Positions 36,868-62,025 of a stretch of DNA of 64,000 bases are shown in pieces. The notes under the pieces are model-generated. The model ran no database searches and was not told where the DNA came from. It was given only the letters and a program-made list of their open reading frames with translations. The stretch covers positions 124,001-188,000 of the forward strand of contig JAVJVK010000001.1 in assembly GCA_040221175.1 (NCBI GenBank). The letters run 5' to 3'. The DNA comes from Phycisphaerales bacterium. GTDB lineage: Bacteria; Planctomycetota; Phycisphaerae; Phycisphaerales; UBA1924. The first letter of the stretch is position 1. Every line of letters starts with the position of its first letter. A program made the position numbers and the translations under genes.

Positions 36868-38010
36868 CTACTTCCGCCCCTTGGCCTTCCCCATCATCTT
36901 CGCCCGGATCGCCGCCGCGCGCTCCTCGGCGGTCTTGGGCCGGCGCGCGGGCTCCTCGGCGGGTGCTTCCTCTTCCGCCGGCGCCTCTTCTTCCGTCGGC
37001 TCAGGCTCGATCTCGCCGGACTCTTCCTTCAGGAGCCGCTCGCGCGCGACCTCGTAGCACGTCGCCAGCAACCCCACCAGCGGGAACTTCGCGTCCTCGA
37101 AGGGGCTGGGGCCCAGGCGCCGCAGCATGGGCGTGGGCACGGGCGGGGGCTCGATGGCAAGGTCGAGCGCATCCAGGTCGGCCGGGCTCTCCCAGAAGCG
37201 TTCCATCATCGCTTCGCCCTCGGGCAGCGCCGCGTCGCTGGCGCCCTCGACCCGGGGCTGGTAGATCGGCCTGGGGTTCGCCCCGCCCGCGCTGAGCAAC
37301 CGCCGGTGGCTCATCCGCTCGGCCAGCGCGCCGTCGGGCAAACCGCGGAGCTTGAAGGCCACGGCGGGGTCGGCCGCGATCCGCTCGGCCAGCAGCATGA
37401 CCACGCAGCAGGCGTGCTTGGCCCAGCCGCCGCCCTCGGCGAGTCCGTTGGGCGTGTCGGGGCAGGTCGTGGTGATCTTCACCGCGTCGGGCGACTCGGG
37501 CAGCAGGCTCAGCCCCAGCGGGCGGAAGACCTCCTCGACGTCCTGGGGCAGGCGACCGCCGAGCACTTCCGCGGCGATGTGGGGCTGCTCGTTGAGCTGG
37601 TCGGCCACCTGGTCCCACTGCTCGGTGGTGAAGGCATCCACGTGCAGCTGCACGTCGTACGCCCGCGTGCGCCGGCCCTGCACCGAAGCGCGCACCAGCC
37701 CGGGCTCGACCACGAGCGTGCGCGTCTGGCCCAGGCGGGCGTACTCGGTTCCCTCCTCGATGGCGCCCGGCCCGGCGCTGAGTTCGATCAGCCGCATCAG
37801 CCGCCGCTCGGGCACGCTGGCCAGGTCCTCGCCCTCTTTCCGCTTGAGCCGGATGCCCCCCGAGACGCGCCTGGGCTTGGTGGGCAGCGGCCGCGGGTGG
37901 GGACGCAGGGGCGCGTTGGGCTTGGTCAGGCTGTCGCGCAGCGCCTGCACGTCCTTCTCGGTCGTGTCGGGGGTTTTGGCATCGTCCTCGGCCGGGCGCT
38001 TGTCGGCCAT
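36868..38010 (-). CDS. SWIM-zinc-finger-like protein paired with SNF2 ATPase
   Basis: 380 aa from ATG 38010, overlapping the SNF2 stop by 1 bp. The central stretch TTTCPDTPNGLAEGGGWAKH followed by ACCVVMLLAERIAADPAVAF resembles the SWIM motif CxCP...CKHxxAVLYLLAERL. The first Cys of CxC is Thr and the Cys of CKH is Ala, so zinc binding is doubtful as written. The C-terminus is acidic and Pro-rich, then basic (RAAAIRAKMMGKAKGRK). Bacterial SWIM proteins are commonly encoded beside SNF2-type ATPases. The role is probably a nucleic-acid-binding accessory. Confidence 0.7.
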   Translation of the reverse strand: MADKRPAEDDAKTPDTTEKDVQALRDSLTKPNAPLRPHPRPLPTKPRRVSGGIRLKRKEGEDLASVPERRLMRLIELSAGPGAIEEGTEYARLGQTRTLVVEPGLVRASVQGRRTRAYDVQLHVDAFTTEQWDQVADQLNEQPHIAAEVLGGRLPQDVEEVFRPLGLSLLPESPDAVKITTTCPDTPNGLAEGGGWAKHACCVVMLLAERIAADPAVAFKLRGLPDGALAERMSHRRLLSAGGANPRPIYQPRVEGASDAALPEGEAMMERFWESPADLDALDLAIEPPPVPTPMLRRLGPSPFEDAKFPLVGLLATCYEVARERLLKEESGEIEPEPTEEEAPAEEEAPAEEPARRPKTAEERAAAIRAKMMGKAKGRK

Positions 38011-41000
38011 CACGCCACCTCTTCATCGCCCACGGCGTCGCCGCGCAGGGTCAGCAGGTCGCGCAGCTGCCCGGTGTCCAGCTCGGTCAGCCAGCGCTCG
38101 CCCGCGCCGACGATCTGCTCGGCCAGCTCGGTCTTCTGCTCGATCATGGCGTCGATGCGTTCCTCCAGCGTGCCGCGCACGACGAACTTGTGCACCTGCA
38201 CCCGGCGCGTCTGGCCGATTCGATAGGCCCGGTCGGTCGCCTGGTTCTCCACCGCCGGGTTCCACCAGCGGTCGAAGTGGAAGACGTGCGTGGCGGCGGT
38301 CAGGTTCAGGCCCACGCCGCCGGCCTTGAGGCTCAGGATCAGCAGCGGCGCGGTGCCGTCGGCCTTCTGGAACTTGTTGATGAGTTCCTGCCGCTGCTTC
38401 TGCGTCGTCCCGCCGTGCAGGAACAGCACCGGCCTTCCCAGCTCCTGTTGCAGGAGCGCGACGAGCAGCTTGCCCATCTGGCGGAACTGGGTGAACAGCA
38501 GGGCCTGTTCGTTCGAGGCCAGGACTTCCTGCAGCATCTCGACCAGCCGCACGCACTTGCCGCTGCGCGTGGCGTCGGGGGCGCCCGGCTGGCCGAAGTC
38601 GTGGTCCTTCAGGAGCTGCGCCGGGTGGTTGCAGATCTGCTTGAGGCGGATGAGCGTGCTGAGCACCATGCCGCGGCGGTGCATGCCCTCGACGCGGTCG
38701 ATGTCGCGCAGCATCGTGTTGACCGTGGCCTCGTACAGCGCCGCCTGCTCGCTGGTCAGGTGGCAGTACTCGCGGCTCTCGACCTTCTCGGGCAGGTCGC
38801 CCGCCACGCCCTCGTCGGTCTTGAGTCGCCGCAGGATGAACGGCCGGACCAATCGCCGGAGCTGCTCGCGCCGGCTCTTGTCGCTGTAGCGCTCGATGGG
38901 CAGGCTGAAGCGACGCCGGAAGTTGCCGATGGTGCCCAGGTACCCGGGATTGCAGAAGTCGATGATCGACCAGAGCTCGCTCAACCGGTTCTCCACGGGC
39001 GTGCCGGTGAGCGTCAGGCGATGGTCGGCCTGGAGCTGGCGCACGCTCTGGGCCTGCTTGGCCGCGGGGTTCTTGATGTTCTGCGCCTCGTCGAGCACGA
39101 TGCGCCGCCAGGGCATGCGCGTCAAGAGGTCGTGGTCGCGGTGGGCCAGCGCATAGGTCGTCAGCACCACGTCGGTGTCGCCGGCCTTGGCGATGAACGC
39201 GTCGTCCTGCAATCGCTCGGCGCCGTGGTGCACCATGACCTTCAGCGTCGGGCAGAACTTGCGCGCCTCGTGCTCCCAGTTGCCCAGCACGCTCATCGGC
39301 ACGATCGCCAGCGTCGGCGGCACGGGCGCCTGGGCGTACGGCCCCTGGCTGTGCAGGTACCGCTCGCGGGCCAAGAGCGCCAGCACCTGGATCGTCTTGC
39401 CCAAGCCCATGTCGTCGGCCAGGCACGCCCCGAAGCCGAACCGCTCCAGGAAGCTCATCCACGCGACGCCGCGGAGCTGGTACGGGCGCAGCTCGCCATG
39501 GAACGTCGGCGGGGCCTCGACCTCGGGCAGCGTCTGGCTCTGATCGCTCGAGCCGAACACCGCCCCCAGCCAGCCGCTGGTCTCGATGCCCACGATCGGG
39601 AGCGCCGCGCCCTCTTCATCCATCGAGCCGTGGGCCATGCGGATGGCCTCGAGCACCGTCATCTCGCCGCCGGGGTGCTCGCGGATGAACCGGGCGGCCG
39701 CCTTGACGTCCTCGGCCCGCACCTCGGCCCACTGCCCGCCCACGCGCACGAGCGGGGCCGACCCGTCCCTGGCCAGCTTCTCGAACTCGGCCAGGGTCAG
39801 CTTCAGCCCACCAAGCGAGATCTCCCACGAGTAGCGCACCAGCGTCTGCAGGCCGAGCTGGCTCTTGTGCGCGTGCGGGGAGCCGGGCGGTCCAGCGTCG
39901 CCCTCCGGAACGGCGCCCCATCCCTCGGCGTCGCCCTGAAGGCTCTCGAGCGGGTCGCTGTCCAGGCGGAGCGTCGCGCCGACGCGAATACTCGGCGAAT
40001 CCCACCACGGCGGCGCGACGACGGTGATGCCCTGCTCGCCCAGCACCGGCGCAGTGTCACGCAAGAACTGGTAGGCCTGCTTGGTGTTCAGCTCGAGCTG
40101 CGTGGGCTCGCTCTGCCGCAGGGCGCCCTCGAGCTTGTCGTACAAACGCGACGCGCGGCCGAGCTCGCTGAGCAGCAACTGCTGGGGGTCGTCGAGCTGG
40201 CGGCCCTCGACCGTCACGCCCCTGCCGGTCAGGCTCCACACCTCGTCGGCGTCGACCTCGACGTTCTCGGTGCCCACGGCGCGCAGGTGGAAGGTCAGCG
40301 CCCACCGCGTGTCGCCCGGCGGGGGCTGCAGATCGGGTAGTTCCTCGGCGTTCACCGGCTCGTGCAGCTTCAGGCACAGGCGCCACAGCGCGCTCGCGCC
40401 GCGCTCCTCGAGGCGCGCAAGCCAGCGGCGCACGCCACGGGCCGCGTCGGTGCGCTCGGCGGGCTTGATGCCCGACTCGACGTCGCCGTCCAGCAGGCCG
40501 CGCAGCCACGCCACGTGCGTGTCGTGCTCCTTGTTTTCGACCGCCTCGGCCAGCTTCTCGTGATCGAACGCCGCCCGCGCCTGCGCATCGAGCACCAGCG
40601 ACAGGAAGTCGCTGAGCACCAGCCACGGGTCGTGCTCCAAGTCATCGACGCCCGCGCTGCACGCCAGCGGCATCGCGCGCAGCAGGTCGCTGGTCACCCG
40701 GGCCGTGTGCTCGTCGGCCAGCCAGGGCTGCCAGCTCCCAAGCAGCCGCCCGTCGGGATGCTGACGCAGGCTGGGCACGAACCGCTGCTGGATGACGAGC
40801 TGCCGCACCAGGCTGAGCGACACGACGAAGTGCCGCAGCGTCGAGGCCACCAGCACGCCCACCGGCCCGGCCTCGCCGTCGCCGCGCAACTCGAAGCGTC
40901 CTTCCCCCAGGGCCTCCTCGGAGGCGTTGCCGGCCAAGTCATTCACCGCATCGAGCACGAGCGCCACGTGCTCCGGGCCCACGCTGAAGCCCGGCGCCTT

Positions 41001-41300
41001 GACGACCTCCAGCGCCGACTCACCGTCGGGCCGATCGACGACGCCGGCGGCGCGCGCCATCGCCGGGCTCGGGCTGCGTCCGCCCTGCGGCAGGCGGAGC
41101 TCGACCTCGCCGGGCTGCGCCACGCCGTGCACCCGGCGCCCGAGGGTGTGCGCGACCCGGTCGATCAGCGACCGGTCGGCGATCCACGACGCGTTGGCGT
41201 CCTCGCGCGACGGCGCGGTCTCGGCCCAGAGCCACAACCGGCCGGCGCACCATGCCGCGTGCAGGCAAGCGGGCTTGCGGCGGACGGCGACGCTCACCAT
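38010..41300 (-). CDS. SNF2/RapA-family DNA translocase (helicase-like ATPase)
   Basis: 1096 aa, ATG at 41300 (GGGAGG 7 nt upstream). The N-terminal 600 residues match the bacterial SNF2-associated region (DPWLVLSDFLSLVLDAQARA, VVAPPWWDS). The ATPase core begins at ELRPYQLRGVAWMSFLERFG. It has Walker A DDMGLGKTIQVLALLA (about residue 627), motif II DEAQNIKNP, LTGTPVENRLSELWSI, RRLKTDEGV, LSLKAGGVGLNLTAATHVFH and the arginine-finger motif QATDRAYRIGQTR. It uses ATP to remodel DNA-protein complexes; the cellular target is unknown. Forms an operon with the SWIM-like gene. Confidence 0.93.
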   Translation of the reverse strand: MVSVAVRRKPACLHAAWCAGRLWLWAETAPSREDANASWIADRSLIDRVAHTLGRRVHGVAQPGEVELRLPQGGRSPSPAMARAAGVVDRPDGESALEVVKAPGFSVGPEHVALVLDAVNDLAGNASEEALGEGRFELRGDGEAGPVGVLVASTLRHFVVSLSLVRQLVIQQRFVPSLRQHPDGRLLGSWQPWLADEHTARVTSDLLRAMPLACSAGVDDLEHDPWLVLSDFLSLVLDAQARAAFDHEKLAEAVENKEHDTHVAWLRGLLDGDVESGIKPAERTDAARGVRRWLARLEERGASALWRLCLKLHEPVNAEELPDLQPPPGDTRWALTFHLRAVGTENVEVDADEVWSLTGRGVTVEGRQLDDPQQLLLSELGRASRLYDKLEGALRQSEPTQLELNTKQAYQFLRDTAPVLGEQGITVVAPPWWDSPSIRVGATLRLDSDPLESLQGDAEGWGAVPEGDAGPPGSPHAHKSQLGLQTLVRYSWEISLGGLKLTLAEFEKLARDGSAPLVRVGGQWAEVRAEDVKAAARFIREHPGGEMTVLEAIRMAHGSMDEEGAALPIVGIETSGWLGAVFGSSDQSQTLPEVEAPPTFHGELRPYQLRGVAWMSFLERFGFGACLADDMGLGKTIQVLALLARERYLHSQGPYAQAPVPPTLAIVPMSVLGNWEHEARKFCPTLKVMVHHGAERLQDDAFIAKAGDTDVVLTTYALAHRDHDLLTRMPWRRIVLDEAQNIKNPAAKQAQSVRQLQADHRLTLTGTPVENRLSELWSIIDFCNPGYLGTIGNFRRRFSLPIERYSDKSRREQLRRLVRPFILRRLKTDEGVAGDLPEKVESREYCHLTSEQAALYEATVNTMLRDIDRVEGMHRRGMVLSTLIRLKQICNHPAQLLKDHDFGQPGAPDATRSGKCVRLVEMLQEVLASNEQALLFTQFRQMGKLLVALLQQELGRPVLFLHGGTTQKQRQELINKFQKADGTAPLLILSLKAGGVGLNLTAATHVFHFDRWWNPAVENQATDRAYRIGQTRRVQVHKFVVRGTLEERIDAMIEQKTELAEQIVGAGERWLTELDTGQLRDLLTLRGDAVGDEEVA

Positions 41301-45890: not shown

Positions 45891-46280
45891 AGAAATCTTT
45901 AAGGTCTAAACCGTTGGAACACCGGGGTTTTGTTCTTCCGATTTGCCCGAAGCGCCGCAAATTGGGTAGCGTTTGCGCGCCAAAGCGGATACCTTGTGGT
46001 GGCGTCGAAGGAATGGCGTCGCGTCGGGGGGTTCGTAGACCACAGCTTCCAGGTCCTCTCGCCAGCAGGCACACAACCACGCGTTCGCGGTGGGGAATCG
46101 TTGCATCGTGCTGGCGCAAGCAAACGTCGGACCAGGGATCAAACAGGCGCGAGAGAGCACGCGCGGTCTGGGAACCAACCACGCACGGAGAATGGACTCG
46201 ATGGGACGACCGGACGCGTCTCGGCCAGGCGGCCGTGGCGGGGTGTTCGTGCGGCCAGGAGACGGCCAGAAGGGTTCGCC

Positions 46281-48011
46281 ATGGCAGCGACCAGCAGGGA
46301 TCAAGGCGTTCGCGCTCCACAGTCCAAATCGGGCGACAATGGACCGGTTCGGGTCCATGCCGGCACCGGCAACGGCCATGCAAGTCAACAACACGCCCAC
46401 GCACCGAAGCTCGGCCTGGTGTCGGCCGAGCCCGAGCAGGGGCCAAACGCGCGGGTGCTCACGCGCACGCCCGGCCGAGATGCGGCCGGCGAGCGCGTGC
46501 GCACGCGACGCCTTCATCCCGGCCGAGATGCCGATGATCGCTCCGAGCCGGCACCGGCACCGGCTCCGGCCGCCCGGGCTTCCAACGAACAGAACCTCGA
46601 GCGACTCCTTGCCGCCAAGGTCGGCTCGCTGACCTTCGAGCGGTACTTCCAGGGGCAGGCCAAGCTCGAGCGGACCGACGACGGCCTCGAGGTCGTGGTC
46701 GCCTCGCGCTTCCTGGTGCCCATCGTGGAGAGCCGCTTCCGCCAGCACCTGGTCGAGATTGCCGGCGGCGGATCCGTCCGCTTCGTCGATCGACCCGCCG
46801 CCTTCCCTGCGGCCCGGCCGCAGAAGGCCACCAAGGTGGTCCGCCCGAAGGCCGAGCCCGCCAAGGCCAAGCTCCACCCCTCGCACGCCCCGTCCGGGCA
46901 CCAGAGTGACCGCTTCGTCCGGCTCGAGGATTTCGTCGTTGGCGCCAGCAACGAACTGGCCCACATGGCCGCCATGTCGATCAGCGACCCGAGCGGCACG
47001 CCCCGCGCAGGCAATCTCCTGGTCCTCCACGGTGGGTGCGGCTTGGGCAAGACCCACCTGCTTCGCGGCATGGCCTACCGGTACAACAGCTTGCGGGGTT
47101 CGGGGGGCAAGGCCAAGTACGTCACCGCCGAACACTTCACCAACGGCTTCCTCGCGGCTTTGCGCACCGGCGGCACCGAGGCCTTCCGCGACAAGTATCG
47201 CGGCGTCGAACTGCTCTGCCTGGACGACGTGCACTTTCTGGCCACCAAGGACGCGACCAAGGCCGAACTGCTCCACACGCTCGACCAGATCCTGCAAGGC
47301 GGCTGCCGCCTGGCGCTGGCCAGCGACGAGCACCCGCGCCAGGTCGAGGGCTTGGGCAAGCAACTGGTCAGCCGGCTGCTGTCGGGCCTGACCATCGAAC
47401 TGGGCGAGCCCGATCAGGCCCTGCGGGAGGCGATGGTGCGCAAGCTGGCACGCCAGCGCGGGCTCTCCCTGAGCGACGACGTCGTCGCCGCCATTGCCGA
47501 GGCCGCCGCCGACGACTCGGGAGACCGGCCGGCCGGGTCATTCCGCGACATCGAGGGTGCGATGGCCCGCGTCGACGCGTTCCACAACCTGCTCGGGCGC
47601 GTGGGCGATGCGCCAGCCGGCGATACCGTGGCCATGTCGACGGTGCACCAGGCCCTGGGCCTGCGAAACCGCCCGACGCCCAAGGCCGGCCCCGTGCGCG
47701 TGGATGCGGTCATCGAGGGCGTCTGCCGATACCTGGGCGTAGGCAGCGCCGAATTCTCCGGCCGGGGCCGCCACCGCCGAGTGGTGCTCGCCCGGGCGCT
47801 CGTGGCGATCATTTCCCGCCAGCTCACCACCGCGAGCTATCCCGAGATCGCCTCGGCCATGGGCCGGCCGAACCACTCGTCGATCATCACCGCCGTTCGG
47901 CGCATCGAGCGGCAGATTGCCGATGAAGAGGTCGTGGCGGTGGGGTGCGAGGCCGACGGTCAGACCGTGGGCCAGCTCGCCGACACGCTGGCCAGGCGGA
48001 TCCGTCGCTAG
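46281..48011 (+). CDS. dnaA: Chromosomal replication initiator protein DnaA
   Basis: About 576 aa. Domain I has NLERLLAAKVGSLTFERYFQ, then an Ala/Pro/Lys-rich linker. The AAA+ domain has Walker A GGCGLGKTH (about residue 250) and Walker B CLDDVHFL. The C-terminal helix-turn-helix SYPEIASAMGRPNHSSIITA recognises DnaA boxes. A roughly 90-residue low-complexity N-terminal segment precedes domain I. The start is uncertain: ATG 46281 with AAGGG is chosen, but the frame stays open to 45930, and the predicted promoter would leave a roughly 380-nt leader. dnaN does not follow; a DegT aminotransferase does. Confidence 0.93.
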   Translation: MAATSRDQGVRAPQSKSGDNGPVRVHAGTGNGHASQQHAHAPKLGLVSAEPEQGPNARVLTRTPGRDAAGERVRTRRLHPGRDADDRSEPAPAPAPAARASNEQNLERLLAAKVGSLTFERYFQGQAKLERTDDGLEVVVASRFLVPIVESRFRQHLVEIAGGGSVRFVDRPAAFPAARPQKATKVVRPKAEPAKAKLHPSHAPSGHQSDRFVRLEDFVVGASNELAHMAAMSISDPSGTPRAGNLLVLHGGCGLGKTHLLRGMAYRYNSLRGSGGKAKYVTAEHFTNGFLAALRTGGTEAFRDKYRGVELLCLDDVHFLATKDATKAELLHTLDQILQGGCRLALASDEHPRQVEGLGKQLVSRLLSGLTIELGEPDQALREAMVRKLARQRGLSLSDDVVAAIAEAAADDSGDRPAGSFRDIEGAMARVDAFHNLLGRVGDAPAGDTVAMSTVHQALGLRNRPTPKAGPVRVDAVIEGVCRYLGVGSAEFSGRGRHRRVVLARALVAIISRQLTTASYPEIASAMGRPNHSSIITAVRRIERQIADEEVVAVGCEADGQTVGQLADTLARRIRR

Positions 48012-49806: not shown

Positions 49807-50397
49807 GTGAAGTGCGACCTTTGCGATGCCGAAGCGACCGTCCACGAGACGCAGATCGTCAACGGACAGGTCATGGTGCGCCGCCTGTGCGAGCGCCATG
49901 CGGCCGAGGTCGGCCTGACGGGCCACGCCAGCGTATCGGTGCCCGCGGGAAGCGCCTCGGTGGTGCTCAGCGTGCAGCAGCAGGGGTCGGGTCTGAAGTG
50001 CGGCAATTGCGGGTTGTCGTTCGCCGCGTTTCGCCAGCACGGGCTACTCGGCTGCCCGACGTGCTACGAGGCATTCGAGGACAAGCTCTCGCCGCTCATC
50101 GAGCGAGCCCACCAGGGCGGCACGCACCATATCGGCAAAACGCCCAAGCGCATGCTGGCGGCCGCCCGGGAGGGTGATCAGGCCGCCATCGAGCGTGTGC
50201 TTGGTGGCGCCCGAGAACGGGCCGAGCGGGTTGCGCTGCTGCGCAAGCAACTCGAAGAAGCCATCGCGATGGAGCAGTACGAGCGTGCGGCGGCGCTGCG
50301 GGACGAACTGCGGCGATTGGAAGCCGAAGCGAGCAGTGAAACAGGCGGTCCGGGGCCCTCGGGCGGCTCGGGTGAAGCGGCGGGTGACGCAGAATGA
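49807..50397 (+). CDS. mcsA: McsA-like activator of protein-arginine kinase
   Basis: 196 aa from a GTG at 49807. The N-terminal half carries Cys pairs typical of McsA zinc sites: MKCDLCDAEA, LCERH, LKCGNCGLSF and GCPTCYEAF. The C-terminus has a UVR-type helical hairpin (LLRKQLEEAIAMEQYERAAA). McsA binds and activates the arginine kinase McsB, encoded next with a 4-bp overlap (ATGA). It ends in a Gly/Ser-rich tail. A TAGAAT box at 49759 may be the promoter -10. Confidence 0.88.
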   Translation: MKCDLCDAEATVHETQIVNGQVMVRRLCERHAAEVGLTGHASVSVPAGSASVVLSVQQQGSGLKCGNCGLSFAAFRQHGLLGCPTCYEAFEDKLSPLIERAHQGGTHHIGKTPKRMLAAAREGDQAAIERVLGGARERAERVALLRKQLEEAIAMEQYERAAALRDELRRLEAEASSETGGPGPSGGSGEAAGDAE

Positions 50398-51566
50398 AGG
50401 AAGGCCAGGGGCAGCACGGCGGCTCTGGCAACTGGTTGGCCGTTGCCGGCCGCGCTGGCGACGTCGTTGTTTCGTCGCGTGTTCGCCTGGCGCGCAACAT
50501 CGCGGGCTTTCGGTTCCCTAATCGCGCGCCGGCGAGCGAGCGCACGGCCGTCCTGGTGCGCCTGAAGCCGGTGGTGCTGGGGGCGCGATTGAGCCCGCAG
50601 GTCGAATGGGTCGACCTGGCATCGACCACGTCCGGCCATCGCGCGTCGCTGGTCGAAGAGCGACTCATCAGCCGCCAGCACGCCATGGGCAAGCCGGGCG
50701 AGCCGATGCACGGGCGGGCGGTTGCGATCGGTCTGCCCGAGCGTCGGCTTTCGATCATGATCAACGAGGAGGATCACCTTCGCCTCCAGGTCATCCGGGG
50801 GGGCTTTGACCTCTCGGGCGCCATGCGCGAGATCGACGCGGCCGACGATGCGCTCGAGCAGAGCGTGGACTACGCGTTCAGCCCTCGCTTCGGATACCTG
50901 ACGGCGTGTCCCACCAACGTCGGCACGGGCGTACGCCTGAGCGTCATGCTCCACCTGCCTGCGCTCAAAATCACGCGTGAGATCGAGAAGGTCAAGCGGG
51001 CCGCCGACGACCTTGGGCTCACCGTCCGCGGCTCGTACGGCGAGGGCAGCGAAGCGACGGGCGACTTCTATCAGATCAGCAACCAGACCACGATCGGCAA
51101 GAGCGAGGCGGTTCTGCTGCGAGAGATGGAGTCTGAGATCATCCCCATGGTCATCGCATATGAGCACAATGCTCGCGATCGGCTGATGCGTGGCGGGCGA
51201 CGCGGCCTCGAAGACCAGACATGGCGAGCCGTGGGCGTGCTGCTGCACGCGAGATTGCTGAGTACCGAAGAAGCAACGCAATTGCTGAGTCGCTTGCGGC
51301 TTGGCATTGCGCTGAAGATCGTTCCGAACCTGGAACTTCCGTTGGTCAATCAACTGCTGGTGGCCGTGCAGCCGGCGCACATCCAGATGGCCATCGGCCA
51401 GGAATTGACGCAGGACCAGCGTCGCGAGGCTCGGGCGTCGTTGTTGCGGGCGAAGCTCGGCGAGGCGTTTGCCTCACCAAGGTCGACGCCGCGGCTGATC
51501 CGCCCCGACCAGCCTGAGCCCCCGGCCGGTCCGGGCAATCGATCCGATCAGGGCGACGCGGACTAG
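50394..51566 (+). CDS. mcsB: Protein-arginine kinase McsB
   Basis: A 390-aa member of the phosphagen-kinase fold. Family motifs: VVVSSRVRLARNIAGFRFPN, SIMINEEDHLRLQVIRGGFD, the catalytic Cys loop LTACPTNVGTGVRLSVM and IGKSEAVLLREMESEIIP. McsB phosphorylates arginines on unfolded proteins, tagging them for ClpC/ClpP degradation in Firmicutes. Near the C-terminus, in the position of the allosteric RDxxRA motif, the sequence is RREARA. clpX but not clpC is in this window. Operon with mcsA and comF. Confidence 0.93.
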   Translation: MKEGQGQHGGSGNWLAVAGRAGDVVVSSRVRLARNIAGFRFPNRAPASERTAVLVRLKPVVLGARLSPQVEWVDLASTTSGHRASLVEERLISRQHAMGKPGEPMHGRAVAIGLPERRLSIMINEEDHLRLQVIRGGFDLSGAMREIDAADDALEQSVDYAFSPRFGYLTACPTNVGTGVRLSVMLHLPALKITREIEKVKRAADDLGLTVRGSYGEGSEATGDFYQISNQTTIGKSEAVLLREMESEIIPMVIAYEHNARDRLMRGGRRGLEDQTWRAVGVLLHARLLSTEEATQLLSRLRLGIALKIVPNLELPLVNQLLVAVQPAHIQMAIGQELTQDQRREARASLLRAKLGEAFASPRSTPRLIRPDQPEPPAGPGNRSDQGDAD

Positions 51567-56517: not shown

Positions 56518-57912
56518 ATGCGCACGATCGCGATCGTCAATCAGAAGGGTGGGTGTGGCAAGACAACCACGGCCATCAGCCTGTCGGGGGCACTGTCCGC
56601 CCGTGGCAAGCGCGTCCTCCTGGTCGACATGGATCCCCAATCCCACTGCGCTGCCGGCCTTGCCATTCCGGAGGCGCATATCGAGCTCGACGTCGGCGAC
56701 GCCATGCTGGCCGGATCGCCCGCCTCGCTCGACCGTTCGAAGCTGCTCTGGCGCATCGGGAGGAACCTCGACCTTCTGCCGAGTCGCATGAAGCTGGCCG
56801 GGCTCGAGGCGAGCCGCGGCGGCCTTGCCACCCTGGAAGACAAAGAACAGCGGCTGGGCAAGGTGGTTTCGAGCCTGGACGGCTATGACTTTGCCATCAT
56901 CGATTGCTCGCCTTCCATCGGCCTGTTGACCTACAACGCGCTGTGTGCGGCCGACGAGGTGCTGATTCCCGTCGAGATGAGCTACTTCTCCCAGCAGGGC
57001 GCCAGCCGGCAGGTTGCTACGTTGCGCAGCTTGGGGCAGCGTCTGGGACGGCAGGCCAGGCACTGGATCGTCCCCACCATCCATGAGCCCGATGCGGCGT
57101 TGCCGTGCGAACTGCTCGAGCAACTCCGCGGCCGTTTTGGTTCGCAGGTGTGCCCGACGGTCATCCACAAGGACGACAAGGTCAAGGAGGCCGCGACGTT
57201 CGGGCGGCCCGTGGGCGAGTACGCCCCGCAGTCCCAAGCTGCGCAGGATTACGATCAACTGGCCGAGTGGGTGCTGGGCCAGGACGTGCCCGAGGCATCG
57301 GGCGGCACCCAGCGCGAGGCGGGCTTTGCGGCTGGTTCTCGGTCGCCCGTGCCGCCGCCGTCAGAACCATGGGCGGAGGCCAAGCCTTCGGTCGAGGCCT
57401 CGCAATCGGTGGCCCAAGTTGCCGAGCGAGCACGCCGCACGATGGAAATCGAGGGGCCGGCGCCACCCGAACAGGCCCAGGCGCGTCCTGCCGAGGCTCC
57501 CGTGTCGGCGGCGACGGCTCCGGAGCCCACGAGCCTGGAACTCGAGCGTTTGCTGCTGCCAAAGCACGGTTCGGAGGCGTTTGGCATCCATGCGGTCCGG
57601 GGCGGCGTGTGGCTGGTTCAGCCCATCGGGCTGGGCCGAGGCGTGGCCGTCGCGGGCGAGTTCAACAATTGGTCGGCCCAGAGCCACCGGTTTGACCGAT
57701 ATCCGAAGTTGGGCGTGCATGCCCGGAAGCTCGAACTTCCTCCCGGGCGGCACGCGTATCGATTGGTGGTCGATGGCTTCTGGACGGCGGACCCGTTCAA
57801 TCCCGATGCCGTGACCAATCCGTTCGGCGAGCCGAACAGCATCGCCGAGGTGCCCGACCCGCGACGCGACGTCGGGTCCTCGGGCCGAGACGACCCGCAG
57901 CCTGCGGCGTAG
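56518..57912 (+). CDS. ParA/MinD-type ATPase fused to a CBM48 glycogen-binding domain
   Basis: 464 aa. The N-terminal 250 residues are a ParA/Soj ATPase: deviant Walker A KGGCGKTT (residues 10-17), VLLVDMDPQSHCAAGLA, IIDCSPSIGLLTYNALCAAD and HKDDKVKEAATFGRPVGEYA. A Pro/Ala/Glu-rich linker (about residues 260-350) leads to a C-terminal domain containing GVAVAGEFNNWSAQSHRFDR, LPPGRHAYRLVVDGFWTADP and NPFGEPNSI. That is the E-set carbohydrate-binding fold of AMP-kinase beta and branching enzymes. No parB is adjacent. ParA proteins position DNA or protein cargo, so the fusion suggests cargo linked to glycogen or another alpha-glucan. Confidence 0.88.
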   Translation: MRTIAIVNQKGGCGKTTTAISLSGALSARGKRVLLVDMDPQSHCAAGLAIPEAHIELDVGDAMLAGSPASLDRSKLLWRIGRNLDLLPSRMKLAGLEASRGGLATLEDKEQRLGKVVSSLDGYDFAIIDCSPSIGLLTYNALCAADEVLIPVEMSYFSQQGASRQVATLRSLGQRLGRQARHWIVPTIHEPDAALPCELLEQLRGRFGSQVCPTVIHKDDKVKEAATFGRPVGEYAPQSQAAQDYDQLAEWVLGQDVPEASGGTQREAGFAAGSRSPVPPPSEPWAEAKPSVEASQSVAQVAERARRTMEIEGPAPPEQAQARPAEAPVSAATAPEPTSLELERLLLPKHGSEAFGIHAVRGGVWLVQPIGLGRGVAVAGEFNNWSAQSHRFDRYPKLGVHARKLELPPGRHAYRLVVDGFWTADPFNPDAVTNPFGEPNSIAEVPDPRRDVGSSGRDDPQPAA

Positions 57913-57970: not shown

Positions 57971-59323
57971 ATGTCCGATCAATCGTCGACGACGTATCCC
58001 GGCTCGAGCAATGGGGCCGCGTTCGAGACGCGCGGCGAGCGGCGTCCGGGCCCGTACGACCGGGCCGATTCTCCCGAAGGCGTCTCTGACGACCTGGCGG
58101 CGCTGTTTCTCGGCATGAACGACGACGACGAGGCGCCTGCTCCGTCGACTCAGGTCGAGCTCAAACCAACCGGGGATTCGGGCCGCCCCTCGCTGTCGCT
58201 CCTGGTGCTGGGCAATCTGCCCGTGCATGCGCCGGGTTGGGCGACGCAGTACGCCCGTGACCGCCATCGCAACACTGGTCGGCCTCTGGGCCTGTTGACG
58301 CTTGGCGACGAGTCGGCCCGGCTGGAGGTCTTCGGCGTATCGGGCTTGCAGGGAACTGCCGACACGGACCTGCGGCGCGCCATCGAGCGGTTGGCCCGGC
58401 TGGAAGTTGATTTGCTGGTGCGCCTTCCCGAGGCCGAAGCGGGGTGGATTGGCGGGGAGTGTCGGATCTCGTCGATGACGATCCTCGCGGGCGCCGACGA
58501 TCCGGCGATCGTTGGCGCATACCAGATCATCAAGGCCATCGTGCAGGACCTGCCACCGGATGTGCCCGGGCCGGCGATGCGGATTGCCGTTGCGGGGGCG
58601 GCCGAGGCGGTCGCGACGGACTCGGCGGCGAAGCTCGCGCAAGCGGCCCAGCGTTTCCTTGGCTTGTCGGTCGACGCCGAGCCGCCGGTCCTCCGCATCG
58701 ATGCTGGTGCGTCGACCGAGTTGTATCACGGCGAGCCGCCCGCATGGGCCGACGTGCCCGACCTGCTTGGACGCATGCTGGAGCGTCGCGATGGCGCGGA
58801 TGTTCGCACGCGGCCCGACGCGGGTGATGGTTTCGAACCACGGCGACCACAGGTGCCCGTGGGCTTCGATGCCGAAGGCGGCGAGATTCCCCACGCCAAG
58901 TCCAAGGCGAGGCCCAAGGCTTCGACGCCCGAGCCGCCGCGCGCCGACATGGCCGAGGCAAGGCCCGATCAGCCAACGGCCGCACGACCGCTGCCCGATG
59001 GGCTCGCGGCAGTCGAGGTGTCGTGTCCATATGCACACGGCGTGAAGCTGGCTGTCGATGCAAGCGGCGTCCTGCACGCCGTGGCGTGGGCTGCCGACAG
59101 CGAGCGAGCGTCGGCGGCGGTGCGAGACCTGGTCGTGGTTTCGAGTTGGCTGCGCGACCACGCCGAACTCGTGGCGGTGGTCATGGGCCGGCGGCTCTCG
59201 GGCCTGCCCAGCGTTCGACACCTGGTGCTCGACGATGCGCGAGGGGCGCTGGGTCTGGCGCAGGGCGAACTGCGGCTGCACGTAGCGGCACCCAATGCGC
59301 CGGTGCTGATCGATCTGAACTGA
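57971..59323 (+). CDS. MinD/FlhG-like protein without a P-loop, ParA partner
   Basis: 450 aa, ATG at 57971, 58 bp after the ParA fusion on the same strand. After an 60-residue acidic disordered start, a Rossmann-like domain follows (PSLSLLVLGNLPVHAPGWAT, LLVRLPEAEAGWIGG, SSMTILAGADDPAIVGAYQI, MRIAVAGAAEAVATDSAAK). It matches the later strands of MinD/FlhG, but no Walker A lysine motif is visible. A Pro/Arg-rich hinge (about residues 285-350) links it to a C-terminal alpha/beta domain (HAVAWAADSERASAAVRDLV). Probable adaptor or regulator of the upstream ATPase. No named family is recognised. Confidence 0.6.
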   Translation: MSDQSSTTYPGSSNGAAFETRGERRPGPYDRADSPEGVSDDLAALFLGMNDDDEAPAPSTQVELKPTGDSGRPSLSLLVLGNLPVHAPGWATQYARDRHRNTGRPLGLLTLGDESARLEVFGVSGLQGTADTDLRRAIERLARLEVDLLVRLPEAEAGWIGGECRISSMTILAGADDPAIVGAYQIIKAIVQDLPPDVPGPAMRIAVAGAAEAVATDSAAKLAQAAQRFLGLSVDAEPPVLRIDAGASTELYHGEPPAWADVPDLLGRMLERRDGADVRTRPDAGDGFEPRRPQVPVGFDAEGGEIPHAKSKARPKASTPEPPRADMAEARPDQPTAARPLPDGLAAVEVSCPYAHGVKLAVDASGVLHAVAWAADSERASAAVRDLVVVSSWLRDHAELVAVVMGRRLSGLPSVRHLVLDDARGALGLAQGELRLHVAAPNAPVLIDLN

Positions 59324-59389: not shown

Positions 59390-60712
59390 TCAGGCGGTCT
59401 TCTTGGACTCGACCCGCAAGTCGTCGAGGGTCATCTTGCCCTTGAGATCGTCGACGTCGATGACGTACTTGTCGCCCTCGTGGTCACGCTCGGGCAGCTC
59501 GTAGAGCAGGTCGAGCATGAGGTCTTCCATGACGCCGCGGAGGGCGCGGGCGCCGGTGTCACGCTTGAGGGCCCGGTTGGCGATCTCCTTGAGCGCTGCC
59601 TTGGTGAACTGCAGCTTGGCGCCCTCGAGATCGAAGAAGTGCTGGTACTGACGCACCAGGGCGTTCTTGGGCTGGGTCAACACGGTCATCATGACGTCCA
59701 GGGTCAGCGGCATGAGCGGGCTGATGATCGGCAGGCGGCCGACGAGCTCGGGGATCATGCCGTACTCGATGACGTCCTCGGTGGTCGCCTGGGCCAGCAA
59801 GGCGCCGCTGCGCTCGCCGACCTGGGTGGCGTCCTCGCCGGTGCCGAAGCCGATGCGGCTGCGGCCGACGCGGCGGCGGATGATGTCTTCCAGGCCCTGG
59901 AACGACCCGCCGCAGATGAACAGGATGTTGCTGGTGTCGACCTGGATGTACTGCTGCTCGGGGTGCTTGCGGCCGCCCTGCGGGGGCACGTTGGCCACGG
60001 TGCCCTCGAGCATCTTGAGCAGGCTCTGCTGGACGCCCTCGCCCGAGACGTCGCGCGTGATCGAGACGTTCTGGCTGGTCTTGCCGATCTTGTCGATCTC
60101 GTCGATGTAGATGATGCCCCGCTGGGCGGCGTCCAGGTCGAAGTCGGCGGCCTGGAGCAGCTTGAGCAGCAGGTTCTCGACGTCTTCACCCACGTAGCCA
60201 GCCTCGGTCAGCGTGGTGGCGTCGCCGATGGCGAAGGGCACCTTCAGCATCCGCGCCAGCGTGCGCGCCAGCAGCGTCTTGCCGCTGCCGGTGGGGCCGA
60301 TGAGCAGGATGTTGCTCTTGTCGAGTTCGACCGAGGTGTCGTTGCTCTCCAGGTGCAGCAGCCGCTTGTAGTGCGTGTGCACGGCGACGGCCAGCGTCTT
60401 CTTGGCCTGTTCCTGGCCGATGACGTACTGGTCGAGGAACTCGGTGATGTTGCGGGGTGTGGGCACCTCACCCAATGCGCTGCCGACCGCCGAGACCTTT
60501 CGGCGCTCCTGGCGGAAGATGTTCAGGCACAGGTCGGTGCAGGGGTTGCAGATATAGACCTGCCCCGGCCCTTCCACCATGGGTCCGACCTCTCGGCTGG
60601 ACTTGCCGCAGAACGAGCAGGTGGTGACGCGGCGTCCCTTGAAGCCGTCATCGCCGCCGCCCGGCTTGGTCTTGCTGAGGTCGTTTCCGCCGTCTCGGGT
60701 GTTCTTTGCCAT
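59390..60712 (-). CDS. clpX: ATP-dependent Clp protease ATP-binding subunit ClpX
   Basis: 440 aa. The N-terminal zinc domain is CSFCGKSS...[10 protein letters not shown]. The AAA+ core has Walker [17 protein letters not shown], Walker [14 protein letters not shown] and the pore loop GYVGED. Sensor/ClpP-binding elements ([12 protein letters not shown]-terminal [11 protein letters not shown]) follow. It unfolds substrates and feeds ClpP. The IGF loop for ClpP docking is present as RIGFG. clpP is not within the window. Confidence 0.98.
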
Positions 60713-60820: not shown

Positions 60821-61174
60821 CTACCGGCCGCGGGGCGGGTCGGTTTCTCGGTCCGCATCACCAACTCCCGAACCCCGGCTGGATGTTCCGGTCGGCTTGG
60901 GTTCGGCCTTGACCCTGGCGATCATGGCTTTTCGGACCTGCTCGTACTCTTCCTGGGACATCTCCCCGCGGTCCACCATCGACCGCATCTCCTCCATCGT
61001 CGAAAAGGCGTGGCGATCTTCGAGCCGCTGCCCGATCATGCGTCGGCGGATCATCAGGAGCGCAACGGTACCGATAACCACGGCCACGATGAGCGCCCCG
61101 ATCCAGACGAGCAGTTGACCGGTGTCTCCGCTGCCCGAGGCCTGGCCGAGCCATGCCTGTGCGATCAACCCCAT
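60821..61174 (-). CDS. Small membrane protein with SHOCT-like tail
   Basis: 117 aa from ATG 61174, overlapping the upstream gene by 10 bp. One membrane helix (LLVWIGALIVAVVIGTVALL) and a short charged helix-turn-helix (MRSMVDRGEMSQEEYEQVRK) like the SHOCT domain, found at the end of many bacterial membrane proteins. The function is unknown. Likely an operon with the 260-aa gene. Confidence 0.65.
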   Translation of the reverse strand: MGLIAQAWLGQASGSGDTGQLLVWIGALIVAVVIGTVALLMIRRRMIGQRLEDRHAFSTMEEMRSMVDRGEMSQEEYEQVRKAMIARVKAEPKPTGTSSRGSGVGDADRETDPPRGR

Positions 61175-61947
61175 GCGCTGGCCCCGCCCGAGGCGATGAA
61201 GGAGCGGATGGGCTGGATCAGCCGCGGCATGACCGACATCTCGATGATGCGCTCGCCGCAACGGCCCAGGTCTGAGAACTCCAGCTTGGGCGTCGTGACG
61301 TCGTCCATCGGACCATGCCGCCGGACCGTGAGATAGACGCTGATGGGCTCGCCTTCGGGGCCAAGGCCGGGATTGGGGGCAGGCCGGGTCTTGATCTCGA
61401 AATAGGCCTCGCTCCGATTGGGGATGCCGTTCCCTCGGAGGGCGACGCCCAGGATGGGCTGGGCGTCGATGGGCGCGGCGTCCATGTCTTCCACGAGGCT
61501 TGCCAGCGGCGAGCCTCGCAGGAGCGACTCGAACACGATGCGGTCGTGGTCGCCAGGCGCATCGATGTCGAAGCCGAAGAGCGTTTCGTAGTAGTCGATG
61601 TCCAGCGGGTTGATGCCCAGGTAGTACGGGGCCAGTTCGAGCACGGCGGCGTGGAGCTGGTAGGCCTGTTGGAAGGACTCGGGGTTCACGGCGCCGGCGC
61701 GCACGCAGTTGCCCCGAACGGCGACCCAGTGCTGCGGGGTCACGCCCGGCGCTGATTCGAGGGCGAGTTCTCCCTGCACGTGCCGGAAGGTCTGCAGGGC
61801 GGGGAATTCCTTGCGGAGGCGGTCGAACAGCTCGACGGTGACCTGGCGCGTGGCGTCGATCTCGCTATGGAATGCGAGCTTGAGGTTGACGTACATGTCC
61901 GAGCAGAGCGCCTTGTAGCTTTCGATGGCCTGGGTGTCGATGGGCAT
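61165..61947 (-). CDS. Conserved-looking hypothetical protein
   Basis: 260 aa from ATG 61947 with AAGGA 9 nt upstream; the first ATG (61956) abuts the ribosome site and is less likely. The sequence is soluble and mixed alpha/beta: YKALCSDMYVNLKLAFHSEI, ELAPYYLGINPLDIDYYETL, FFEIK-like strands and a final helical part ending SGGASAWG. No motif or family is recognised, and there is no signal peptide. Cotranscribed with the small SHOCT-like protein. Confidence 0.55.
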   Translation of the reverse strand: MPIDTQAIESYKALCSDMYVNLKLAFHSEIDATRQVTVELFDRLRKEFPALQTFRHVQGELALESAPGVTPQHWVAVRGNCVRAGAVNPESFQQAYQLHAAVLELAPYYLGINPLDIDYYETLFGFDIDAPGDHDRIVFESLLRGSPLASLVEDMDAAPIDAQPILGVALRGNGIPNRSEAYFEIKTRPAPNPGLGPEGEPISVYLTVRRHGPMDDVTTPKLEFSDLGRCGERIIEMSVMPRLIQPIRSFIASGGASAWG

Positions 61948-62025
61948 GTTGGTCATTCCTTCGATCCGACGTGCGGGGCAGGATGTCGACGCCCGGAGGC
62001 GCCCGGCTCGGACGGAGAGCGTCGA

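Follow-up and report, generated by a model that had tools for sequence, protein, structure and literature searches.

A ParA-type ATPase fused to an AMPK-beta-like CBM48 domain and encoded beside a P-loop-less FlhG-like protein in Phycisphaerales: a candidate system for handling glycogen

Why a ParA-type ATPase should carry a domain of the kind that recognizes glycogen is the question raised by one gene of a Phycisphaerales bacterium (Planctomycetota; GenBank assembly GCA_040221175.1). We analysed 64,000 nucleotides of its contig JAVJVK010000001.1 (positions 124,001 to 188,000, forward strand), hereafter called the window, in which this gene occupies positions 56518..57912 of the plus strand and encodes 464 amino acids (aa) plus a stop codon. 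A preliminary description, made from the letters of the window alone, had read the gene as a ParA ATPase fused to a carbohydrate-binding module (CBM) of family CBM48. We found an intact open reading frame (ORF) at exactly these positions, and both domains scored above their Pfam cut-offs, which bears out the place and the content of that reading.

The N-terminal part (aa 1-253, 56518..57276, plus strand) is a Soj/ParA-type ATPase domain. Pfam AAA_31 matched aa 1-175 (E 2.6e-41) and CbiA matched as well (E 7.1e-19), while phmmer retrieved the Soj/ParA structures 8ray (1.5e-37) and 1wcv (1e-35). The AlphaFold2 model of the whole protein reached a mean predicted local distance difference test (pLDDT) score of 84.0 and showed a Soj-like domain together with a confident, mostly-beta C-terminal domain. 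By Foldseek, the ParA part was closest to Soj/ParA chains (9a6n, 2bek and 8ray among the four best), with template modelling scores (TMt) of 0.89-0.91 and root-mean-square deviations (rmsd) of 1.9-2.2. To follow conservation, we used an alignment of 45 rows, consisting of the window protein and 44 homologues. The deviant Walker A motif KGGCGKTT (aa 10-17, 56545..56568, plus strand) holds the signature lysine K10 and the lysine K15, both present in 45/45 rows, so the Walker A motif is indeed intact, as first described; the catalytic and Walker B aspartates D39 and D129 were likewise kept in 45/45. Non-specific DNA binding by this domain is likely, since position 223 is K/R in 45/45 rows, though of the DNA-binding arginines of Soj (R189 and R218) the equivalent of R189 is basic in just 3/45; position 217 is basic in 29/45.

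The C-terminal part (aa 351-447, 57568..57858, plus strand) is an AMPK-beta-like CBM48, a glycogen-recognition type of domain. Pfam AMPK1_CBM (PF16561) matched aa 373-447 with 37.7 bits against a cut-off of 26.8 (E 2.4e-9), and phmmer aligned aa 370-446 with the glycogen-binding domain of rat AMPK-beta1 (1z0n, E 3.5e-8). In the rat protein, W100, K126, W133 and N150 are critical for carbohydrate contact, as confirmed by mutation (PMC4032982). Read from the alignment, their equivalents are the putative glucan contacts W385, R415, W422 and N440, of which W385 was found in 45/45 rows, R/K415 in 45/45, W422 in 44/45 and N440 in 39/45; the equivalent of K126 is Arg in 42/45, including the window protein, and Lys in 3/45. 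The earlier assignment to the AMPK-beta type is thus upheld by the match above cut-off, the likeness to 1z0n and the conserved contact residues. As to the E-set fold on which that assignment depends, the model predicts a confident mostly-beta domain (block pLDDT 86-97 over aa 341-450), and the 50 Foldseek rows listed all went to the ParA part. From the conserved contacts we infer that the domain binds alpha-glucan. With the two domains correctly assigned and the glucan-contact residues conserved, the protein may still be described as a ParA that bears a glycogen-binding arm.

The fusion itself is genuine. At a threshold of E 0.001, the single PF16561 match in the host genome is the ParA-CBM48 protein, and the fused protein recurs among homologues with 37-76% whole-length identity (rows of two alignments). 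Between the two domains lies a variable linker (aa 254-350, 57277..57567, plus strand) with pLDDT below 50 at aa 261-297 and 312-335. Across the 45 rows, mean pairwise identity was 0.59 in the ParA domain, 0.20 in the linker and 0.46 in the CBM, the pattern to be expected of two functional domains and a stretch that only connects them. The linker does hold one conserved short predicted helix (aa 298-311, 57409..57450, plus strand; block pLDDT 43-58, a low confidence) with a family consensus of about R-A-A-E-L-A-x-R-A, and a similar sequence occurs in two relatives that have no CBM (L061 and L065).

We then scanned a genome collection and took the best 80 listed loci, ranked by similarity to the fused profile, a ranking that gives no estimate of frequency; all 80 were fused. 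Their genomes were titled as planctomycete groups in 77 cases and simply as 'bacterium' in two (L111, L142), and the remaining one, Leptolyngbya sp. PLA1 (L083), is perhaps a misnamed bin. Among 40 loci fetched from the order, 39 held the family ParA, and a domain search, proposed in the preliminary description as a check, found the CBM in the same frame in 36 of these 39. One locus counted as unfused (L152) probably owes this to an undetermined base near the junction. Chance, annotation error or a frameshift artefact was ruled out by the recurrence of the fused frame in the 36/39 order loci and in all of the best 80.

Immediately downstream lies a second gene (57971..59323, plus strand; 450 aa plus stop), here called the partner, which the preliminary description did not mention and which encodes a degenerate FlhG/FleN-like protein, a conserved pseudo-ATPase. 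It gave no Pfam or NCBIfam match, and a Pfam search of 24 members of its family returned two single weak matches, none credible. When the partner-family profile was compared with the PDB, the five best matches were all FlhG/FleN (4rz2, E 8.6e-4). Its AlphaFold2 model (mean pLDDT 80.1) had FlhG as the best fold in Foldseek (E 8.4e-7), and VIA-align placed 4rz2 first with Z 11.9 over aa 72..267 (rmsd 4.8, 167 residues aligned), followed by FleN entries at Z 10.0-10.5, the next unrelated row being at 9.6. Below FlhG/FleN, among the rows listed, came GTPases of the signal recognition particle (SRP) type, dethiobiotin synthetases and nitrogenase iron proteins (Z 8-9.6); the arrangement is a widespread one.

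The FlhG-like domain of the partner spans aa 72-275 (58184..58795, plus strand). The P-loop motif GxxxxGK[ST], sought along the whole protein, occurred in 0/53 aligned rows, and its place (aa 81-95, 58211..58255, plus strand) is occupied by an invariant G-x-L-P...W (G81, L83, P84 and W90). Because a functional Walker A motif was found in 0/53 rows, we consider the partner FlhG-like by predicted fold and not an FlhG. It also has a disordered, mostly acidic N-terminal tail (net charge between -20 and 4, with a median of -5) that contains a conserved helix at aa 36-46 (58076..58108, plus strand; block mean pLDDT 47-53, which is low). The consensus there is D-A-L-A-D-L-F-L-G over aa 40-48, with L42 in 49/53 rows, L45 in 49/53 and F46 in 50/53. 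At the other end is a predicted alpha/beta domain (aa 345-450, 59003..59320, plus strand; block pLDDT 87-97).

Partner and ParA are closely linked. The partner was found downstream on the same strand in 80/80 of the best listed loci, with a median gap of 40 base pairs (bp); 65/80 gaps were at most 150 bp (24 of them overlaps), six exceeded 400 bp and reached up to 1320, and seven loci were cut by a contig end. In the order, 38 of the 39 loci with the family ParA had it. The partner also stood beside ParA in loci where aroB, rsfS or clpX was not found.

Outside this core the distribution is looser. In a protein search of 61 genomes, the host and 60 relatives, some ParA match appeared in 61/61, the best match of G031 being just 33% identical and probably another ParA. 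Across a class sample, the family ParA reached E 1e-85 or lower in 176/248 genomes, and some PF16561 match was present in 235/248; 13 of 30 class loci fetched lacked the family ParA, and part of the 235 matches are small stand-alone CBM48 proteins. Such stand-alone AMPK-type frames of about 90-190 aa were seen at L153, L156, L158, L160, L161, L165, L166 and L177, and the fused domain may have come from such a frame. Outside the order, reading adjacency by hand, we found a partner match adjoining ParA in 12/40 class genomes with the family ParA (G163, G074, G088, G065, G100, G119, G141, G239, G066, G251, G067 and G068). The remaining 28 had no partner match or a weak one elsewhere, mostly over the FlhG-like core, and these weak matches are perhaps true FlhG. 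The candidate rule of a partner everywhere was ruled out by these 28/40; a downstream partner-like ORF was likewise not found in the six loci L194, L195, L197, L198, L200 and L201. Among 38 class genomes without a family-grade ParA, seven gave a weak partner match (G061, G070, G079, G097, G134, G140 and G154); that of G061 spans the core and the C-terminal part, and this genome may hold a partner-like gene.

Among 292 genomes sampled across the phylum, no score of family grade (above 340 bits) came from outside the class. Next in rank was G329 (261 bits), which is placed outside the class and has ParA fused to CBM48 too (L189, 5111-7335), followed by a gene of 328 aa with an N-terminal KKLGRGIEDFI segment. 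This gene had no Pfam match and looks MinD-like by eye alone; no significant hit came from PDB sequences or Pfam, and hhalign against the partner profile gave a weak match (E 0.042, probability 1.2). Its start resembles the ParA-activating peptide of ParB, a likeness with no significant score behind it. Judged by eye, it may be another type of partner, or the same type strongly diverged.

Turning to glycogen, genes for a phosphorylase and a GT3 glycogen synthase are clustered with a GlgB-type gene in the host genome, and therefore the cargo can exist. This cluster lies outside the window (L182 6357-13035; G000:C1, about 94-101 kb), and its synthase is of the GT3 type (PF05693). GT3 is patchy in the order, with matches in 0/19 genomes of family f2 and 11/11 of family f6 among those tested. 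In the first 25 order genomes, GT3 accompanied the fused ParA in 14/16 and the CBM-less one in 1/9 (p 3e-4), a difference not upheld in the larger set. With 84 order genomes the counts were 43/74 and 2/10 (Fisher p 0.039), fusion status being read by hand, for G208, G266 and G253 from PF16561 absence or frame length; the count leaves out G006, where GT3 was not tested, and G013, G024, G031, G229, G232, G247 and G250, where fusion status was unclear or the gene was not found. By family, fused against CBM-less, GT3 was present in 27/42 vs 1/3 (f1), 0/9 vs 0/6 (f2) and 4/5 vs 1/1 (f5). The idea that loss of the CBM is tied to loss of GT3 glycogen synthase thus found no support once 84 of the 92 order genomes were counted and stratified by family. 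Neither GT5 nor phosphorylase tracked the CBM. Of the 74 fused order genomes, 31 had no GT3 match, and some of them may use other glycogen routes.

How, then, might the two proteins work? Two domains, their conserved motifs, the partner's resemblance in fold and the linkage of the genes are what the locus offers as observation. On these we tentatively favour, with less than even confidence, a spatial switch of the ParA/MinD type that depends on ATP, bears an arm of its own for binding cargo or for sensing, and is encoded together with a pseudo-ATPase. By analogy with its family, the Soj-like domain would bind ATP, dimerise and bind DNA non-specifically, and the CBM48, on its long linker and through its conserved contact residues, would bind alpha-glucan chains. 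The ATPase would thereby tether to the nucleoid either glycogen particles or an enzyme complex coated with glucan. The FlhG-like partner without a P-loop might use its conserved N-terminal helix to dock on the ATPase, or might dimerise with it as a catalytically dead subunit, and would then control the ATP cycle or connect the ATPase to other components. As an outcome, stored glucan might be distributed, sorted or sensed across the cell. That the system serves ATP-driven glycogen handling in particular, ParA holding glucan through its own CBM48, switching with a dead FlhG-like subunit and distributing it along the nucleoid, is possible, and we rate it as somewhat doubtful.

Several results weigh against the favoured reading. 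Stratified by family, no association between GT3 and the CBM is left (Cochran-Mantel-Haenszel z 0.78). One fused genome (G129) had no match to GT3, GT5 or phosphorylase, its sole match being CBM_48, and seven genomes of family f9 have GT3 with no family ParA at 1e-85. Seven sequenced loci of the family ParA lack the CBM (L052, L061, L065, L185, L186, L187 and L192), and since six of these seven keep the partner, the CBM is separable from the ParA-partner pair. Outside the order, the 28/40 class genomes without a detectable adjacent partner count in the same direction, as does the scarcely conserved equivalent of Soj R189. The partner's tail is acidic, whereas the ParA-activating motif of ParB carries a positively charged residue (PMC12462528). 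The preliminary description had proposed the positioning or sorting of glucan granules, or a sensing of glucan that is coupled to chromosome segregation. In its favour are the invariant catalytic residues of ParA, the near-invariant glucan residues and the glycogen genes of the host; against it are GT3, which does not follow the CBM after stratification, and the seven ParAs without one, and it is still something that we infer.

The CBM-less ParAs, six of seven with the partner, and the lack of association with GT3 after stratification suit the first alternative, that the CBM48 is a repurposed E-set module for protein interaction, which docks another protein, binds no glucan and so gives the ATPase a different cargo. 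The replacement of N440 in 6/45 rows would also agree with it. However, two stacking tryptophans and a basic residue are kept in 44-45 of the 45 rows with no obvious need for them in a new interface, and docking of the partner is unlikely to be the task of the CBM because the partner gene occurs without it. We regard this alternative as rather unlikely.

A second alternative keeps the glucan and changes its role: the CBM would report the glucan state to the ATPase, which would position some other cargo or control division or envelope assembly. The AMPK-type CBM is the closest relative, AMPK activity is inhibited by glycogen binding (PMC4032982), and a ParA-partner pair without the CBM is what an add-on regulatory arm would leave. 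The neighbours, however, suggest no other cargo, as aroB, rsfS and clpX are housekeeping genes and occurred in 0/9 class loci outside the order; a sensor of this kind seems unlikely to us.

The remaining alternative is that this ParA partitions the chromosome in these bacteria in the ordinary way and that its CBM is incidental. In the window, dnaA lies at 45930-48008 and the cumulative GC skew has its minimum at about 48-50 kb, both about 6.5-8.5 kb upstream of the fusion gene, so that a replication origin near the gene is possible. Coarse skew sampling of four other genomes was contradictory: in G056, G175 and G106 the distance between gene and skew minimum came to 0.08-0.09 of the chromosome, but in G004, of the window's own genus, to 0.46, which makes the test unreliable. 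No parB stands beside the gene, which has aroB upstream and the FlhG-like gene without a Pfam match downstream, and a ParABS system was ruled out on this ground. Despite the nearness of dnaA and the skew minimum, partition is very improbable, given that the downstream gene is FlhG-like and not ParB, that the genome holds two further ParA-like matches at 1e-10, and that dnaA was near the module in 0/46 full-length loci of the best 80 listed and 0/40 order loci (a reach of 7-9 kb, which would miss dnaA even in this genus).

Some further genes of the window deserve mention. A gene of 263 aa without a Pfam match (61165-61956, minus strand) was near the module in 19/46 full-length loci of the best 80 listed and in 12/40 order loci, and clpX was present too in all 12 of the latter. 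At 49807-51563, a UVR-motif gene and an ATP:guanido phosphotransferase gene lie side by side; from their Pfam matches we read them as McsA-like and McsB-like. The neighbourhood also includes clpX (59390-60712), and protein-arginine phosphorylation in this planctomycete is possible. Farther away, an SNF2 helicase with DUF3670 (38013-41300) stands beside a gene of 381 aa without a Pfam match at 1e-6 (36871-38013, minus strand).

Among the best-ranked papers listed by searches of the open-access PMC literature, we found no ParA with a CBM48, an architecture that subscription papers or protein databases could still list, and no description of glycogen partitioning at division. Known ParA/MinD cargoes include chromosomes, plasmids, carboxysomes, chemoreceptor arrays and flagella (in part from PMC10241942). 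By term search, the word glycogen is absent from that multi-cargo ParA/MinD paper and from the organelle-positioning review PMC13052382. If the reading of ATP-driven glycogen handling is true, the system would, as far as the papers listed show, be without precedent among ParA-type systems, both in serving a polysaccharide and in having the ATPase bear the arm that binds the cargo. The distribution of glycogen at division becomes directly testable with a ParA whose glycogen-recognition domain is intact and which is conserved across much of a class. The pairing of a presumably active ParA with a conserved relative that has no P-loop would also offer a pseudoenzyme-controlled switch distinct from ParB, McdB and MinE.

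Compared with known systems, the window protein shares with the ParA/Soj partition ATPases the deviant Walker A motif with its signature lysine, the catalytic Asp and the Soj fold, but it has a C-terminal CBM48 on a linker and, instead of ParB, a P-loop-less FlhG-like neighbour. Its ATPase domain also matched models of BcsQ, the MinD-like ATPase of cellulose synthesis: Pfam CBP_BcsQ above the cut-off (63.5 bits against 21.3), and TIGR03371 with 103.8 bits, below the NCBIfam cut-off of 157.85; Soj structures are closer by fold than those of BcsQ. The AMPK-beta glycogen-binding domain resembles the CBM48 in sequence (1z0n) and at the four critical contact positions, although in AMPK it sits on a kinase subunit, here on a ParA ATPase, and K126 is mostly Arg here. 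FlhG/FleN and the partner are alike in the fold of aa 72-275 and in the stretch around Y184/K188, whereas the partner lacks the P-loop and has the extra disordered N-terminal tail and C-terminal domain. The two-gene layout of ATPase and partner recalls McdA/McdB of carboxysome positioning, and McdA structures were among the fold matches. There, McdA holds the nucleoid and McdB the organelle (PMC13052382), whereas here the cargo would be bound by the ATPase, and the partner is a folded FlhG-like protein. One-protein tethers that join polyhydroxybutyrate (PHB) or polyphosphate granules to DNA, namely PhaM, PhaF, PhaH and AlgP, are described in the same 2025 review (PMC13052382); ParA-CBM48 would be like them if it joins storage-granule and DNA binding in one polypeptide, and would differ in that their granules are PHB or polyphosphate. 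ParA-CBM48 would then combine the design of McdA/McdB with that of the granule tethers.
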